A DNA stretch of 64,000 bases from the NCBI RefSeq assembly GCF_030656875.1, contig NZ_CP130943.1, positions 1,736,001 to 1,800,000 of the forward strand, read 5' to 3'. The stretch is from Prescottella sp. R16 (lineage in GTDB: Bacteria > Actinomycetota > Actinomycetes > Mycobacteriales > Mycobacteriaceae). Below the pieces are notes generated by a model. That model saw nothing but the letters and a program-made list of their open reading frames with translations. It made no database searches and was not told the DNA's origin. Position numbers and translations under genes: made by a program. This document shows positions 6,621-60,274 of the stretch, piece by piece. Numbering within the stretch: position 1 is the first letter of the stretch; each line of letters begins with the position of its first letter.

Positions 6621-8114
6621 GTGCTCGACACTCCCTCCCACACCTCCGTCACCAGTGTCGGCGCGGCCCTGCGTTCGCCGCGCCGACTCACCACCGAGGT
6701 GCTCGCCGGTCTCGTGACGTCCCTCGCACTCATCCCCGAGGTGGTGTCGTTCGCGGTCATCGCGGGCGTCGATCCGAAGGTCGCGCTGTACACGTCGTGC
6801 ATCATGGCGATGACGATCGCGTTCGTCGGCGGACGCCCGGCGATGGTGTCGGCCGCGGCGGGTGCGACGGCGCTGGTGATCGCACCGCTCGTCGCGGCGC
6901 ACGGCATCGACCATCTGATCGCCGCGGTGTGGCTGGCGGGTGCCCTGCAGATCCTGTTCGCGGCTGTGGGACTGGCACGGCTGGTCCGGTTCGTGCCGCG
7001 GTCGGTGATGATCGGGTTCGTCAACGCGCTCGCGATCCTCATCTTCACCGCGCAGCTCCGGCACCTGGTCGACGTTCCGTGGCTGGTGTATCCGCTCGTC
7101 GCCGCCGGGATCGGTCTGATCGTCCTGGTACCGAAGATGACGAGATCCGTACCCGCACCGCTGATCGCGATCGTCGTGCTCACGAGCGTGGTCGCGGCGT
7201 TGCGTCTCGACGTCCCCGACGTCGGCGATCAGGGCGAGCTGCCGTCGGGCCTGCCCACCTGGATGATCCCGGACGTGCCGTTGACGTGGGAGACGCTGAC
7301 GACCATCGCTCCGTTCGCGCTTGGTCTCGCGCTCGTCGGTCTGCTCGAGTCCCTGCTCACCGCCAAGCTCGTCGACGACATCACCGACACCCCGTCGGAC
7401 AAGACCCGAGAATCGTGGGGGCAGGGCGTCGCGAACATGGCCGGTGCGGCCTTCGGCGGCATGGGCGGCTGCGCGATGATCGGCCAGACCATGATCAACG
7501 TGAAGGAGGGGCGGGCCCGTACCCGTATCTCCACGTTCCTCGCGGGCGCGTTCCTGCTGTTGCTGTGCATCACCGTCGGCGACGTCGTCGGCGCGATTCC
7601 CATGGCGGCCCTCGTCGCGGTGATGATCGTCATCGCGGCCACCACCTTCGACTGGCACAGCATCGCCCCGGCCACGCTCCGGCTGATGCCGCGCAGCGAG
7701 ACGCTCGTCATGGTGGTGACCGTCGTCGGCACACTCGCCACCGACAACCTCGCGGTCGGTGTCGTTCTCGGTGTGCTCACCGCGATGGTCGCGTTCGCCC
7801 GCCGTGTCGCGCACATGACCCGGCTCGACGTCACCGACACCGTCGTCGACGGAGTCCCGGCCCGGACGTACCGGGTGTCCGGGGAACTGTTCTGGGCGTC
7901 GAGCAACGATCTGGTGCACCGGTTCGACTACGCCGCCGATCCGCCGTCCGTGACGATCGACCTGTCGGCCGCCCACGTGTGGGACGCGTCCACCGTCGCG
8001 ACCCTCGACGCGGTGCAGCGCAAGTACGCGGCACGGGGTACGACGGTGCGGATCGAAGGCGTCGACGCCGAGAGCCGATCCCGCCTCGACAGGTTGTCCG
8101 GACGCCTCGGGTGA
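6621..8114 (+). CDS. SulP-family anion transporter with STAS domain
   Basis: A 497-residue inner-membrane protein of the SLC26/SulP family, which moves sulfate, bicarbonate or dicarboxylates. It has about 10-12 hydrophobic segments, the family region VDPKVALYTSCIMAMTIAF, and a C-terminal cytosolic STAS domain from about residue 400 (VTIDLSAAHVWDASTVATLD). The substrate cannot be read from sequence. No carbonic anhydrase or sulfate assimilation gene is adjacent, but a sulfur-compound uptake operon follows it, so sulfate is possible. The GTG start lies 6 nt after a TAGGCT -10 box. Confidence 0.9.
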   Translation: MLDTPSHTSVTSVGAALRSPRRLTTEVLAGLVTSLALIPEVVSFAVIAGVDPKVALYTSCIMAMTIAFVGGRPAMVSAAAGATALVIAPLVAAHGIDHLIAAVWLAGALQILFAAVGLARLVRFVPRSVMIGFVNALAILIFTAQLRHLVDVPWLVYPLVAAGIGLIVLVPKMTRSVPAPLIAIVVLTSVVAALRLDVPDVGDQGELPSGLPTWMIPDVPLTWETLTTIAPFALGLALVGLLESLLTAKLVDDITDTPSDKTRESWGQGVANMAGAAFGGMGGCAMIGQTMINVKEGRARTRISTFLAGAFLLLLCITVGDVVGAIPMAALVAVMIVIAATTFDWHSIAPATLRLMPRSETLVMVVTVVGTLATDNLAVGVVLGVLTAMVAFARRVAHMTRLDVTDTVVDGVPARTYRVSGELFWASSNDLVHRFDYAADPPSVTIDLSAAHVWDASTVATLDAVQRKYAARGTTVRIEGVDAESRSRLDRLSGRLG

Positions 8115-8159
8115 CGGGTCCGGGACCGTTCGTCGCACATTCGTCGCCGCTCGTCGTCG

Positions 8160-8171
8160 TGCGTATACGCA
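8160..8171. promoter_or_regulatory. Perfect 12-bp palindrome, possible operator
   Basis: TGCGTATACGCA is fully self-complementary. It sits directly upstream of the -35 element of the oxygenase-metQNI promoter and 45 nt after sulP, a typical position for an activator or repressor site. The regulator is unknown. Confidence 0.35.
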
Positions 8172-8175
8172 AGAT

Positions 8176-8205
8176 TTGAGTTCGGAACCTGTCAAGCGTT
8201 AGTCT
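8176..8205 (+). promoter_or_regulatory. Promoter of the oxygenase-metQNI operon
   Basis: TTGAGT (8176-8181) and TAGTCT (8200-8205) are separated by 18 nt and fit the housekeeping sigma consensus. Transcription would start near 8212, giving a leader of about 250 nt before the oxygenase ATG. Confidence 0.5.
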
Positions 8206-8267
8206 TCCCGCGGCGGTACATCCGGTTCTCGGGTACCGATTCACGATCTCGTCCGGGAAGGGCACTG

Positions 8268-8339
8268 ATGCGCGGCTTCGCAGCAACCATCGCCATGACG
8301 CGAATGCGTGGCGGTTGCTGTTGTATGCGCCGGCGCTGA
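8268..8339 (+). CDS. Polycysteine leader peptide (attenuator small ORF)
   Basis: A 23-codon ORF begins at ATG 8268, 5 nt after the purine-rich site GGGAAGGG, and ends at TGA 8337-8339. Its C-terminal part reads MTRMRGGCCCMRRR, with three consecutive Cys codons (TGC TGT TGT, 8316-8324). In-frame ATGs at 8295 and 8304 are alternative starts. Polycysteine small ORFs are established cysteine-responsive attenuators in mycobacteria, where they precede sulfur metabolism genes. Here the ORF precedes an oxygenase and a MetQNI importer. A bulged hairpin at 8281-8320 covers the codons before the Cys run and the first of it. Confidence 0.7.
   Translation: MRGFAATIAMTRMRGGCCCMRRR
8281..8320 (+). promoter_or_regulatory. 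Bulged hairpin overlapping the leader-peptide Cys codons
   Basis: CAGCAACC (8281-8288) pairs with GGTTGCTG (8313-8320). GCCA (8292-8295) pairs with TGGC (8309-8312), and CGC (8299-8301) with GCG (8306-8308) around a GAAT loop. The two 3-nt bulges are on the 5' side. A ribosome reading or stalled at the Cys codons would melt this stem. Confidence 0.5.
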
Positions 8340-8354
8340 GACGAGACGACGCGC

Positions 8355-8391
8355 GGTGGTCCATCCGGACCGCCTCGCATCCGAAGTGCGA
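8355..8391 (+). promoter_or_regulatory. Two consecutive leader hairpins
   Basis: GGTGGTCC (8355-8362) pairs with GGACCGCC (8367-8374) around a 4-nt loop with one G-T wobble. TCGCA (8375-8379) pairs with TGCGA (8387-8391). They separate the small ORF from the RBS-sequestering stem. Confidence 0.4.
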
Positions 8392-8455
8392 ATCCTTCCC
8401 ATCGGGCACCCACGTCGCAGCGCGAGAACATCACCGGTGCCCGTGGGGAAAGGAT
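8392..8455 (+). promoter_or_regulatory. Stem sequestering the oxygenase ribosome binding site
   Basis: ATCCTTCCC (8392-8400) plus CGGGCACC (8403-8410) fold back on GGTGCCCG (8436-8443) plus GGGGAAAGGAT (8445-8455). The inner 8 bp are perfect and the outer part has small bulges. The 3' strand contains GGGGAAAGGA, the ribosome binding site of the oxygenase ATG at 8464, so the folded form should block translation. Confidence 0.55.
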
Positions 8456-8463
8456 CTGCCACC

Positions 8464-9477
8464 ATGTCCGCCCACGCCCTCCCGATCATCGATCTGAACG
8501 ACCTCGATCTCGAGGCCCTGCGTACGGTCACCCACGAGATCGGCTTCTTCTACCTCACCGGTCACGGCATCGACCAGCAGCTCACCGACGACCTGATCGC
8601 CGCGGCCCGCGAATTCTTCGCACTGCCCGAAGCCGAGAAGCTCCCGATCGAGAACAGCAACTCGCCGCACTTCCGCGGCTACACCCGTGTCGGCGGCGAG
8701 CGCACCCAGGGCTACATCGACTGGCGTGAGCAGCTCGACATCGGTCCCGAGCGCCGCGCCGTCGACCCGATCGACCCGGCCCGCCCGTGGGACGTGCTGC
8801 ACGGCCCCAACCTGTGGCCCGCCGCCGTCCCGCGGCTGCGCGAGCTCGCGCTCGAATGGTCGGGCCAGGCGCAGGACGCCGGGCTGCGCCTGATCCGTGG
8901 CTGGGCCCGGTCGCTCGGGGCGCCCGCCGATTTCTTCGACGCCGCGTTCGCCGATCCGGACCCACTGCTCAAGATCGCCCGCTATCCCGGCCACGACGGC
9001 TCCGTCACCGGCCAGGGCGTCGGCAGCCACAAGGACGTCGGCGCACTGACCCTGCTGTACCCGGAACCCACCAGCACCGGTTTCCAGGTGGAAACATCGA
9101 TCCGGGGAGGCGGGACTGCGTGGCTGGACGTCGCCCCGCTGCCCGGGCACCTGCTCGTCAACATCGGCGAACTCCTCGAGGTCGCCACCGGCGGCTATCT
9201 CAAGGCCACCGTGCACCGCGTGCTGCCGCCCCCGGCCGGTACCGACCGGGTGTCGCTGCCGTTTTTCCTCAACCCCGGCTACGACGAGGCGCTGCCCGTG
9301 ATCCCGCTGTCGCCCGAGCTCGCCGCGGACGCGGCCGGTGTCGGACCCGACCAGCACGGCGGCACCTTGCACGCCCGCTACGGCCTCAACGCCCTCAAAT
9401 CGCGCCTGCGCGCCCACCCCAACGTCACCGAGCGGTACCACCGCGACCTGCTCGACCTGCCCGCCCTGCGCGGCTGA
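8464..9477 (+). CDS. 2-oxoglutarate/Fe(II)-type oxygenase (isopenicillin-N-synthase family)
   Basis: A 337-residue non-heme iron oxygenase. The iron ligands are His189 and Asp191 (SHKDVG) and His251 (TVHRVL); Arg262-x-Ser264 (RVS) is the usual 2-oxoglutarate carboxylate site. An N-terminal DIOX_N-like part (LPIIDLNDLDLEAL, then IGFFYLTGHGI) matches the family. It is first in an operon with metQ, metN and metI, so its substrate may be a sulfur compound or modified methionine imported by that transporter; this is inference. The ATG at 8464 has GGGGAAAGGA 9 nt upstream, buried in a leader stem. Confidence 0.88.
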   Translation: MSAHALPIIDLNDLDLEALRTVTHEIGFFYLTGHGIDQQLTDDLIAAAREFFALPEAEKLPIENSNSPHFRGYTRVGGERTQGYIDWREQLDIGPERRAVDPIDPARPWDVLHGPNLWPAAVPRLRELALEWSGQAQDAGLRLIRGWARSLGAPADFFDAAFADPDPLLKIARYPGHDGSVTGQGVGSHKDVGALTLLYPEPTSTGFQVETSIRGGGTAWLDVAPLPGHLLVNIGELLEVATGGYLKATVHRVLPPPAGTDRVSLPFFLNPGYDEALPVIPLSPELAADAAGVGPDQHGGTLHARYGLNALKSRLRAHPNVTERYHRDLLDLPALRG

Positions 9478-9507: not shown

Positions 9508-10341
9508 ATGTTCTTGCGCCGCAACGCAATCCTGTCCGCTGCCGCCCTGCTCACCGCGGGTCTCGCTGCCTGCTCCTCGGGTAACGAGGGGGAGAAGCTG
9601 GTGATCTCCGCGTCCAGCACCCCGCACGTGGAGATCCTCGAGCACATCGCCGACTCCGGCGCCCTCGGCGACATCACCCTCGACATCAAGCCGGTCACCG
9701 GCGAGATCGACCCCAACGAACTGCTCGTCGCCGGCGACGTCCAGGCCAACTACTTCCAGCACGCCCCGTATCTGGCGGACTGGCAGAAGCAGAAGGGCGT
9801 GAACGACCTCGTCTCCGTCGCCGACGTCCACCTCGAGCCGATGGGTCTGTACTCGGAGAAGATCACCGCCGTCGACCAGCTCGCCGACGGCTCCACCATC
9901 GCGCTGCCCAAGGACACCACCAACTTCGCGCGCGGCCTCTACCTGCTCGAGTCTGCCGGACTGATCGAGATGGACGTCCCGTTCGCCGACGCGAACCTGT
10001 CCGTCGTCACCCAGGCCAACGTCAACGCCAACCCCAAGAACCTGAAGTTCGTCGAGATCGAGCGCTCGCAGATCGCCCGCAACCTCGGTGACCCGCAGAT
10101 CACCGCCGCGGTCATCAACTCCAACTACGCGCTCGAGGCCGGACTGAACCCGACGGAGGACACGCTCCTCGCGGAGAAGGCCGAGGGCAACCCGTTCGCG
10201 AACCTGCTCGTCGTCCGTGCCGCCGACGAGAACGATCCCGGCGTCCAGGCCCTCGCGAAGGCGCTCGTGTCCCCGGAGACCGCCACCTGGATCCAGGAGA
10301 ACTACTCCGGCGCCGTCGTCCCGGTGCACGCGGCCGGCTGA
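9508..10341 (+). CDS. metQ: MetQ, substrate-binding lipoprotein of a methionine-type ABC importer
   Basis: A 277-residue NLPA-family lipoprotein that captures substrate outside the membrane for MetN-MetI. The signal peptide ends in lipobox LAAC (Cys22). Family features include STPHVEILEH near the mature N-terminus and the NYFQHAPYL segment. Substrates of the family include L- and D-methionine and related compounds. It starts 30 nt after the oxygenase stop and its own stop overlaps the metN start by 1 nt (TGATG), so all four genes form one operon. Confidence 0.92.
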   Translation: MFLRRNAILSAAALLTAGLAACSSGNEGEKLVISASSTPHVEILEHIADSGALGDITLDIKPVTGEIDPNELLVAGDVQANYFQHAPYLADWQKQKGVNDLVSVADVHLEPMGLYSEKITAVDQLADGSTIALPKDTTNFARGLYLLESAGLIEMDVPFADANLSVVTQANVNANPKNLKFVEIERSQIARNLGDPQITAAVINSNYALEAGLNPTEDTLLAEKAEGNPFANLLVVRAADENDPGVQALAKALVSPETATWIQENYSGAVVPVHAAG

Positions 10342-11375
10342 TGATCACCGTCGAGAATCTGGTCAAGACCTTCCCCGCCGCCGGTGGCGCGGCCCCGGTC
10401 GCGGCCCTGCGCGGCATCGACCTCGAGATCGCCGAGGGCGAGATCTTCGGCATCGTCGGCCCCTCGGGTGCGGGCAAGTCGACGCTGCTGCGGTGCCTGA
10501 ACCTGCTCGAGCAGCCCACCAGTGGCCGCATTCTGCTCCGCGGCACGCCGGTCTCCCAGTTCACCGGTTTCGGGCTGCGGGCCGCACGACGCCGCATCGG
10601 CACCGTGTTCCAGCAGTTCAACCTGCTGCACTCGCGGACCGTGCGCGCCAACGTCGAGTTCCCGCTCGAACTCGCCGGAATGGACCGCAAGCAGCGCCGC
10701 GCCCGCGCCGACGAGCTGATCGCCCTCGTCGGCCTGGCCGGCAAGGAGAAGTCGTTCCCGTCGCAGCTGTCCGGCGGACAGCAGCAGCGGGTCGGCATCG
10801 CCCGCGCCCTCGCGTCGAACCCCGACGTGCTGCTGTGCGACGAGGCCACCAGCGCGCTGGATCCCGACACCACCGACCAGGTCCTCGACCTGCTCGCCGA
10901 ACTCAACCGCTCGATCGGCGTCACCGTCGTTCTCATCACCCACGAGCTGGGGGTGCTGCGCCGCATCTGCACGTCCGCGGCCCGGCTCGAGGACGGCCGC
11001 ATCGCCGAGACCGGACGGATCCTCGACCTGGTCGGCACACCCGGCTCGGTGCTGGGGGCGGCGATCGTCCCGGTCGGTGACGACCCGTCCCAGGGAGACG
11101 GCGCCGACACCGCGCTCGTCACCACGATCGGCGACGAGGCGCACGGGCCGTGGCTCGCGCAGCTCGTCCGCAAGCTCGACGTCGACATCTCCGTGGTCGG
11201 CGGCAGCGTCGAACAGGTCGCCGGCGTCACCGTCGGACGACTGCGGCTACGGTTCGGTCCCGACGTGAACCGGGCCGACGTCGACGCATTCGTGGCCGCC
11301 CAGCCCGGCACCACCCTCTCCTGGGGTGCCGGGCAGGAAGAGACCCGCGCACTGGTGCAGGGAGTAACCGCATGA
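10341..11375 (+). CDS. metN: MetN, ATPase of a methionine-type ABC importer
   Basis: A 344-residue ATP-binding subunit. Walker A is GPSGAGKS (40-47), signature LSGGQQQR (143-150), Walker B VLLCDE (163-168) and the switch His is at 201. From about residue 250 there is a NIL-type ACT-like domain (LVRKLDVDISVVGGSVEQVAGVTVG region), which in E. coli MetN binds methionine and shuts the transporter down. It overlaps metQ by 1 nt and metI by 4 nt. Confidence 0.94.
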   Translation: MITVENLVKTFPAAGGAAPVAALRGIDLEIAEGEIFGIVGPSGAGKSTLLRCLNLLEQPTSGRILLRGTPVSQFTGFGLRAARRRIGTVFQQFNLLHSRTVRANVEFPLELAGMDRKQRRARADELIALVGLAGKEKSFPSQLSGGQQQRVGIARALASNPDVLLCDEATSALDPDTTDQVLDLLAELNRSIGVTVVLITHELGVLRRICTSAARLEDGRIAETGRILDLVGTPGSVLGAAIVPVGDDPSQGDGADTALVTTIGDEAHGPWLAQLVRKLDVDISVVGGSVEQVAGVTVGRLRLRFGPDVNRADVDAFVAAQPGTTLSWGAGQEETRALVQGVTA

Positions 11376-12040
11376 ACAAGTTGTCCTGGCAGGACTCGCT
11401 CCCCGAGGTGTGGGAGGCGACGCAGGAGACCCTCTACATGGTGTCGATCTCGTTCCTGCTCACCGTGATCGGCGGAGTGCTGCTCGGCGTGATCCTGCAC
11501 GTGACCTCGCCGAGCGGATTGTGGCCCCAGCGTGCCGTCAACGCGGTGCTCGGCGCCGTCGTCAACGTGTTCCGGTCGCTGCCGTTCCTCATCCTGATGA
11601 TCGCGCTGATCGGCACGACCCGGCTGATCGTCGGCACCGCGATCGGCCCGACGGCCGCGATCGTCCCGCTGACGATCGGTGCGATCCCGTTCTACGCACG
11701 CGTCGTCGAGTCGGCGCTGCGCGAGGTACCCGTCGGCCGGATCGAGGCGGCGCAGGCGATGGGTGCGAGCAACAGCCAGATCGTGCGCAAGGTGCTCCTG
11801 CCGGAATCGGTGTCGGCCCTGATCGCCGGTGCGACGCTCACCGTCGTGCTGCTGATCGGATACTCGGCGATGGCCGGCGTCATCGGCGGCGGCGGGCTGG
11901 GTGACTTCGCGATCGTCTACGGCTACCAGCGGTTCAACACGCCGGTACTGCTCGTCGCGGTCGTGGTGCTCGTCGTCCTCGTGCAGATCCTGCAGTCCAT
12001 CGGTGACGGCGTCGTCCGGGCGCTGAAGCACCGCAAGTAG
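11372..12040 (+). CDS. metI: MetI, permease of a methionine-type ABC importer
   Basis: A 222-residue inner-membrane permease with five predicted transmembrane segments. The EAA loop that contacts MetN is clear (IEAAQAMGASNSQIVRKVLL). The ATG overlaps the metN stop (ATGA). It closes the oxygenase-metQNI operon; only a weak hairpin follows. Confidence 0.93.
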   Translation: MNKLSWQDSLPEVWEATQETLYMVSISFLLTVIGGVLLGVILHVTSPSGLWPQRAVNAVLGAVVNVFRSLPFLILMIALIGTTRLIVGTAIGPTAAIVPLTIGAIPFYARVVESALREVPVGRIEAAQAMGASNSQIVRKVLLPESVSALIAGATLTVVLLIGYSAMAGVIGGGGLGDFAIVYGYQRFNTPVLLVAVVVLVVLVQILQSIGDGVVRALKHRK

Positions 12041-17414: not shown

Positions 17415-17535
17415 TGAGCACGGTAAGGTGCTGCAACCGAAGAAACATCTGCGGGGAAGCCTGTGAGAACCAGGCGCGGTCCCGCCACTGTGAGGGCGTC
17501 GAATCGGATTCGCCCGAAGCCAGAATGCCGCGATG
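17415..17535 (+). ncRNA. Cobalamin riboswitch
   Basis: The leader contains the conserved blocks of the adenosylcobalamin riboswitch: GGGGAAGCCTGTGAGAA, then GCGCGGTCCCGCCACTGTGA (the B12 box), then a variable hairpin CGAATCGGATTCG and the closing block CGAAGCCAGAATGCC. It precedes the chelatase-cobO-cobB-cobA cluster, so high adenosylcobalamin should repress this operon. The ligand class is secure; whether the switch acts on translation or termination is not shown. Confidence 0.93.
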
Positions 17536-17589
17536 TTTCGTACCGCCAAGCTCTCGGCGCGGAGACCGAGGAGTGAAGGGATTCGATCG

Positions 17590-60086: not shown

Positions 60087-60274
60087 GCTTGTGTACCACC
60101 CCGCCGACCGCGCCTGTAGGCGTGGCGTCGGTCTTCGGTAGTGGCCCGCCGGACGTGATCCGGCAGGCTTCGATCGACGGCCGCCTCCGCCCTGCGAGGA
60201 GCGCAGCCGCGACCAGGAGGGTCGCGGCGCCGATGCGGATTCGGCAAAAGACGAGAGGGAAGAGAAGAGAAGAA

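Follow-up and report, generated by a model that had tools for sequence, protein, structure and literature searches.

The leader and its operon

In the window, the 64,000 nucleotides of Prescottella sp. R16 analyzed here (contig NZ_CP130943.1, positions 1,736,001 to 1,800,000), a gene for an Fe(II)/2-oxoglutarate oxygenase is followed by genes for homologues of MetQ, MetN and MetI, and this operon is preceded by a leader with a short cysteine-rich open reading frame (ORF) (Table 1). The promoter, the Shine-Dalgarno (SD)-led ORF of 23 codons with its three consecutive Cys codons, the hairpin over these codons and the further hairpins named in the preliminary description were all found in the sequence. 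The Pfam matches of the operon proteins are clear; those to the NCBIfam Met models all lie below the cut-offs, and the profile search gave no NCBIfam match for the oxygenase, in whose sequence an HxD motif, a distal His and an RxS motif can be read, to which we presume the meaning familiar for such enzymes. Homologues of MetQ, MetN and MetI, identified by profile matches, would be the operon's tie to sulfur metabolism, and its role is probably sulfur acquisition. In R. qingshengii IGTS8 growing on dibenzothiophene, the sulfur-starved culture of the paper concerned, proteins named MetQ and MetN were raised (PMC8557817).

Table 1. Features of the leader and the operon, in positions of the window
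Feature	Position	Strand	Basis or remark
Palindrome CGTATACG, possible operator	8162..8169	.	just upstream of -35
Promoter TTGAGT -N18- TAGTCT	8176..8205	+	-35 at 8176-8181, 18-nt spacer, -10 at 8200-8205; conservation of pattern in relatives
Segment 1 (UCUCGUC), 5′ strand of H1	8247..8253	+	pairs with 8340-8346
Leader SD GGGAAGGG	8255..8262	+	sequence; alignment of relatives
Leader ORF MRGFAATIAMTRMRGGCCCMRRR, 23 codons plus TGA	8268..8339	+	22-24-codon orthologues in 16 genomes
Hairpin H2	8280..8321	+	8280-8288 with 8313-8321; Cys codons against leader codons 5-7
Cys codons TGC TGT TGT	8316..8324	+	last one 5 codons ahead of stop
Segment 2, stop-codon element GCGCUGAGACG, 5′ strand of H5	8333..8343	+	duplex search; alignment
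Hairpin H3	8351..8378	+	between leader stop and RBS hairpin
RBS hairpin H4	8398..8447	+	8398-8400 with 8445-8447; 8404-8410 with 8436-8442
Segment 3, H4 loop CGUCGCAGCGC, 3′ strand of H5	8413..8423	+	best duplex partner in 16/16
Oxygenase SD GAAAGGA	8448..8454	+	sequence; folding
Fe(II)/2-oxoglutarate oxygenase	8464..9477	+	Pfam DIOX_N plus 2OG-FeII_Oxy
MetQ/NlpA-family substrate-binding lipoprotein	9508..10341	+	Pfam; NCBIfam below cut-offs
MetN-like ATPase, C-terminal NIL domain	10341..11375	+	MetN model 282 bits, cut-off 499.7
MetI-like permease	11372..12040	+	MetI model 209 bits, cut-off 212

The leader ATG stands 62 nt behind the -10 and is SD-led, so that by promoter prediction the leader is not leaderless and has a 5′ untranslated region of about 55 nt; an untranslated gap of 124 nt separates the leader ORF from the oxygenase gene. 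In a chance control over the window and 21 loci, SD-led Cys-rich ORFs (beginning with ATG, 8-45 amino acids long, with at least 3 Cys in the last 12 residues) occurred in 33 of 3720 random 300-nt segments taken from both strands, and 29 of the 33 contained the leader itself, the other 4 representing two other ORFs.

As to the surroundings, a gene for a SulP-family permease (6621-8114) lies directly upstream of the leader region. At two related loci (L023 and L024) the oxygenase gene lies close behind a SulP gene; neither of the two genes has a Cys leader, and metQNI is missing. Elsewhere in the window, Rfam models match a cobalamin riboswitch at 17454-17567 (34.9 bits) and an Actino-pnp RNA at 60127-60185 (56.3 bits).

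Two leader types and their distribution

A DNA search of 101 genomes gave matches in all 14 same-genus genomes and at one chance place elsewhere; the latter, L015, a 27-nt DNA match in another genus, carries no such leader and was left out of all alignments. Two more copies occur in Rhodococcus tukisamuensis and Tomitella biformata. From these 16 copies (type A), a covariance model was built for the leader's 3′ two-thirds; run under Infernal's stricter filters, it reported 16 of 401 family genomes, with one place in each, and these were the same 16 places. Fourteen of the type A leaders stand ahead of an oxygenase-metQ pair, and two (L013 and L014), at loci that lack the oxygenase, directly ahead of metQ.

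The preliminary description had proposed a search for conserved Cys codons among relatives, and such codons are indeed present in all 16 type A leaders, which have 22-24 codons and 2-4 Cys codons each. The run reads CCC in 11/16, CCRC in 4/16 and CC in 1/16, and the distance from the last Cys codon to the stop is five codons in 15 leaders and six in L011. Altogether these leaders hold 49 Cys codons, 31 TGT and 18 TGC; in five genes of the window, all seven Cys codons are TGC and none is TGT. In L007 and L008 the -10 is followed after 11-12 nt by an extra in-frame ATG.

A Cys-rich leader of different sequence (type B) occupies the same place in all 14 MetQ-bearing genomes of a sister group of Rhodococcus (g27), behind the same type of promoter. 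In 11/14, 62-70 nt separate the -10 from its ATG and the SD reads GGAGG; in 3/14 (L142, L144 and L155) the separation is only 8 nt, a leaderless-like arrangement. Type B leaders were not reported by the type A covariance model; they have no consensus RBS hairpin, and it is the Cys-codon hairpin that stands out. In many of them the last Cys codon is near the stop, not five codons away, and openness of the SD barely depends on the simulated position of the ribosome. In one (L148) the leader is kept though the oxygenase gives no tblastn match, and what stands in its place looks, by eye, like a remnant of the gene.

Conservation across both types is also the ground for the promoter call, as a generic sigma-70 scan did not report the leader promoter: the pattern TTGNNN-N17/18-TANNNT is in place in 13 of the 16 type A rows and in all 14 type B leaders. 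Among the three type A misses, L002 lacks the TTG, and the rows of L013 and L014 end too early there. The GTATAC of the palindrome CGTATACG recurs in 11 of the 14 type A rows that extend that far, and the palindrome is a possible regulator site.

Presence of the leader follows that of the importer genes. Where metQ, metN and metI lie behind the oxygenase gene, a Cys leader is present at 17 of 17 loci, and where metQNI is missing, at 0 of 6 (L023, L024, L033, L035, L036 and L089, in the stretch scanned); these 23 named loci (L016-L036, L069 and L089), with oxygenases at least 67% identical, share common ancestry and are not 23 independent events. At one of them (L069) the matches to the oxygenase, MetQ, MetN and MetI come in pieces and in different frames of a single assembly, through sequencing error or decay.

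From the perspective of MetQ, 36 of 49 genomes were examined, comprising 16 with type A leaders, 14 of the sister group and 6 of a further genus (MetQ identity 49-53%), and in the last of these no Cys leader was found within 420 nt upstream of metQ. The scan for upstream Cys ORFs covered the best 80 of 90 oxygenase loci, most of which, beyond the relatives of Rhodococcus, have none; the same holds for five Corynebacterium loci with a MetQ relative beside the oxygenase (L041, L053, L060, L061 and L062).

Short Cys-rich ORFs of other kinds were seen farther afield. MNALFCCCCCR in a Microbacterium MAG (L056) and MNALLCCCCCR in an Actinomycetota MAG (L058) lie about 126 nt upstream of the oxygenase gene, and MARLLCRRCCCRSSL in Microcella alkalica (L042) about 212 nt upstream; in all three the ATG follows a TANNNT box at a distance of 9 nt, a leaderless-like layout, and the 11-kb locus gives no match to metQNI. 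In C. jejuni 414 and a Campylobacter MAG (L083 and L084), MKLMCEMCSI or MKKLMCQMCSI is encoded 185-214 nt upstream of a relative of the oxygenase, and this short ORF with Met and Cys codons is followed by a CCUUUGG...CCAAAGG hairpin; neither locus has an Rfam match at the gathering score. It is possibly a Met/Cys attenuator, and the corresponding ORF of L085, with one Cys codon only, speaks against a plain Cys sensor. We take Cj1199 and Cj1200 to be the genes of these three loci. Named an oxidoreductase and a MetQ-like lipoprotein, Campylobacter Cj1199 and Cj1200 were raised in a luxS mutant (PMC2772989).

Helices of the leader RNA

The region 8240-8470 has a minimum free energy of -104.5 kcal/mol (z -2.42), and 2 of 200 shuffles were equally stable. 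The RNAalifold consensus contains H3, H4, the Cys-codon hairpin and a stem between the 5′ segment and GAGACG at the leader stop, a shifted pairing that it favors over the H1 register of Table 1. H1 is paired in 95.5% of the alignment cells, with 0 pairs changed on both sides, and H2 in 90.6% (8 pairs counted). The compensatory changes that the preliminary description had suggested looking for exist in the middle hairpin, H3, where three pairs have changes on both sides; they are absent from the RBS stem H4 (0 pairs, 16 rows) and from H5, the pairing of segments 2 and 3 (0/10 pairs). H4 is near-invariant, its two parts being paired in 98.2% and 95.8% of cells, and covariation is uninformative for H4 and H5 because their pairs hardly vary.

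The right arm of H4 abuts the oxygenase SD. The claim that a stem closes this ribosome-binding site (RBS) stands for the window, in which the SD is unpaired with a probability of 0.23 and 3 of 60 shuffles are as closed, and does not extend to most relatives: across the 16 leaders, the number of shuffles, out of 60, that equal the leader in closure is at most 6 in six, 8 in one and at least 18 in nine. Where closure is no better than in shuffles, the conserved stem adjoins the SD and does not cover it. In these models, tight closure of the SD bases is not general among the homologues.

H5 was spotted by eye and is absent from the preliminary description; it is not nested with H4 and hence does not appear in the RNAalifold consensus. 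Among the downstream sequences with which the stop-codon element could pair, the H4 loop gives the best duplex in all 16 leaders. The ten pairs of H5 are formed in 96.9% of cells, compared with 14-52% when the strands are slid by 1-3 columns, and 125 of 500 shuffles reach the same pairing percentage. Within the H4 loop, mean identity is 0.96 in the ten columns that are partners in H5, 0.81 in the mismatch column and 0.53 in the other 19. Within 8414-8421 the loop varies in a single column, that of the mismatch facing the A of UGA; variation is also seen in the flanking columns (8413, 8422 and 8423), and the outer pair 8334-8422 is broken in 4/16 leaders and 8335-8421 in one. When duplex energy was compared with 300 shuffles, at most one was as good in 4 of the 16 leaders, 4-31 were as good in 8 (31 for the window) and 51-145 in the remaining 4 (L009, L010, L012 and L021).

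In models of nascent RNA, with the transcript ending before the right arm of H4, the probability of H5 is at least 0.80 in 12/16 leaders with a ribosome at the first Cys codon, at least 0.95 in 11/16 without a ribosome, and 0 in 16/16 with a ribosome at the stop, where the constraint imposes it. Because H5 is equally ready to form without a ribosome, any switching would depend solely on the ribosome at the stop. The nascent RNA of the window itself, with probabilities of 0.46 free and 0.26 stalled, counts against such a scheme. In knot-free models H4 beats H5 by a median of 4.8 kcal/mol, and with a stalled ribosome it is favored in 11/16 leaders and H5 in 5/16, one of these five being L022, in which an inserted C causes a register problem and weakens the forced H4. 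A ribosome stalled at Cys raises SD openness of the complete leader by more than 0.1 in only 2/16 (L006 and L007); in L014 the effect is of that size but in the opposite direction. These energies do not support a purely thermodynamic, knot-free switch; since H4 wins thermodynamically, H5 would have to fold first or form a pseudoknot with H4. The two could coexist as such a pseudoknot.

A candidate attenuator, its alternatives and its known relatives

As the preliminary description had proposed, a cysteine-responsive leader predicted to act on the oxygenase-metQNI operon is well supported, owing to the conservation of the leader and its association with metQNI, and we consider cysteine-responsive attenuation in general to be very probable. 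For the fuller statement that the leader, H5 and H4 included, is a cysteine-responsive translational attenuator of the operon, the balance tips moderately in favor. We infer that the leader ORF is translated, that cysteine is what it responds to, in which direction control runs and that H5 opposes H4; the detailed H5/H4 scheme is more tentative, and we are nearly evenly divided over it, leaning slightly toward doubt.

According to this scheme, when Cys-tRNA is plentiful, ribosomes would get past all three Cys codons and come to pause on the UGA, where they would cover segment 2; H5 could then not form, H4 would fold against the oxygenase SD and the operon would be poorly translated. When Cys-tRNA is short, a ribosome would be held at one of the Cys codons, its leading edge not quite reaching segment 2, which would pair with segment 3 as soon as the latter is transcribed and before the right arm of H4 exists. 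H4 would thereby be delayed or blocked, and the oxygenase, MetQ, MetN and MetI would be made. The leading edge of a ribosome lies at +15, and with the spacing of five codons between the last Cys codon and the stop, segment 2 would consequently be free in the stalled state and covered at the stop. A similar logic of stop-codon masking, acting on transcription, belongs to the proposed attenuator of M. tuberculosis ilvB1 (PMC13236596).

A more ambitious reading makes the stop codon itself a strand of the switch: the UGA element would pair into the loop of the RBS hairpin, SD-led and leaderless forms of the leader would be swapped between related lineages, the layout would be new and the oxygenase would be placed in cysteine supply. 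The terminating ribosome would then signal that cysteine is present, and a ribosome held five codons earlier would free an antisequestor or pseudoknot. We regard this combination as doubtful.

Premature termination in the 124-nt gap, probably dependent on Rho and set by translation of the leader, would instead leave the RBS hairpin incidental. The search of 8100-8480 found no intrinsic terminator (a G+C hairpin followed by a T run), as this explanation would have it; an involvement of Rho in mycobacterial cys leaders was proposed in 2005 (PMC1262725), and a paper on Rho and translated upstream ORFs in M. tuberculosis exists (D'Halluin 2023). Termination would leave unexplained, however, a near-invariant hairpin with a conserved loop that abuts the SD, and we think it unlikely. 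H4 and H5 might also jointly form an H-type pseudoknot at the RBS, either a ribosome-dependent lock that is opened at the stop or a knot that holds the SD open, perhaps with the opposite sign of control. By eye, both stems could be accommodated, with about 2-5 and 11-15 nt in the connecting loops; the part of the H4 loop that is conserved is that of the H5 columns, and H4 is itself near-invariant and thermodynamically favored; yet repression under cysteine shortage makes little sense for an importer operon, and the chance we give this arrangement is small. It is very improbable that the conserved ORF encodes a functional small protein, with control unrelated to stalling, for although residues outside the Cys run are conserved (MRG.AAT and CMR), the product is only 22-24 amino acids long, nucleotide conservation runs on past the leader stop, and the sister group's peptide at the same place is largely unlike it, with the Cys run in common. 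Equally remote is a riboswitch or protein-bound leader with incidental Cys codons, which could account for how strongly the non-coding sequence of H4 and of part of its loop is conserved, but Cys codons recur in unlike leaders, and Rfam gave no match in the leader at the gathering score and, relaxed to E values up to 10, nothing credible (one match of 12.9 bits, E 3, gathering 44).

In our preferred reading, Prescottella, Rhodococcus and Tomitella, and with them an oxygenase-importer operon, join the probable cases of cysteine-responsive control by a leader, and the leader implies that the product of this operon is probably cysteine or its sulfur. If the detailed scheme holds, a shift of the ribosome by a mere five codons would reverse the output, which would make for a compact switch.

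The kind of regulation is already known. At mycobacterial polycysteine ORFs, stalled ribosomes reportedly unmask the RBS of the next gene. The pairing of a polycysteine ORF with a hidden RBS, which the preliminary description had considered new, was anticipated by published work on cysteine-responsive translation attenuation by such ORFs in mycobacteria (Canestrari et al. 2020, Mol Microbiol 114:93), and conserved Cys-rich leaderless upstream ORFs ahead of cysA2, Rv0485 and nirA were described in 2015 (PLoS Genet; PMC4633059). Among the titles and abstract openings listed from open-licence PMC papers, none concerned the present leader. What looks new is its SD-led form, its operon, the existence of two leader types and the stop-codon/loop pairing, the last of which is both the most interesting and the least proven point; the complementarity suggests that H5 acts as an antisequestor or pseudoknot, which a ribosome at the stop would mask.

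With the mycobacterial polycysteine ORFs, as far as the available portions of those papers describe them, the leader shares a short ORF whose end is rich in clustered Cys codons, first place in the operon, an expected response to cysteine and, as proposed here, translational control. Unlike those leaderless ORFs, it is SD-led behind a predicted 5′ untranslated region, its oxygenase-metQNI operon is not among the named examples (PMC4633059), and a conserved stop-codon/loop pairing was not met in these portions. It also resembles the candidate cysteine leader peptides proposed in 2005 for Mycobacterium, Propionibacterium acnes and Bifidobacterium longum (PMC1262725), which are likewise short ORFs with Cys runs near the stop, for which no terminator was found; those leaders precede the cys operon and cbs, and the available part of that paper reports no conserved terminator hairpin and does not mention Rhodococcus. 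With attenuators of the trp/ilvB type, finally, it would share alternative helices chosen by ribosome position and, as in the accessible account of ilvB1, masking by a ribosome at the stop codon, whereas it lacks their intrinsic terminator and places the output hairpin at the RBS. If true, the stop-codon/loop architecture would represent a new layout for a translational attenuator.
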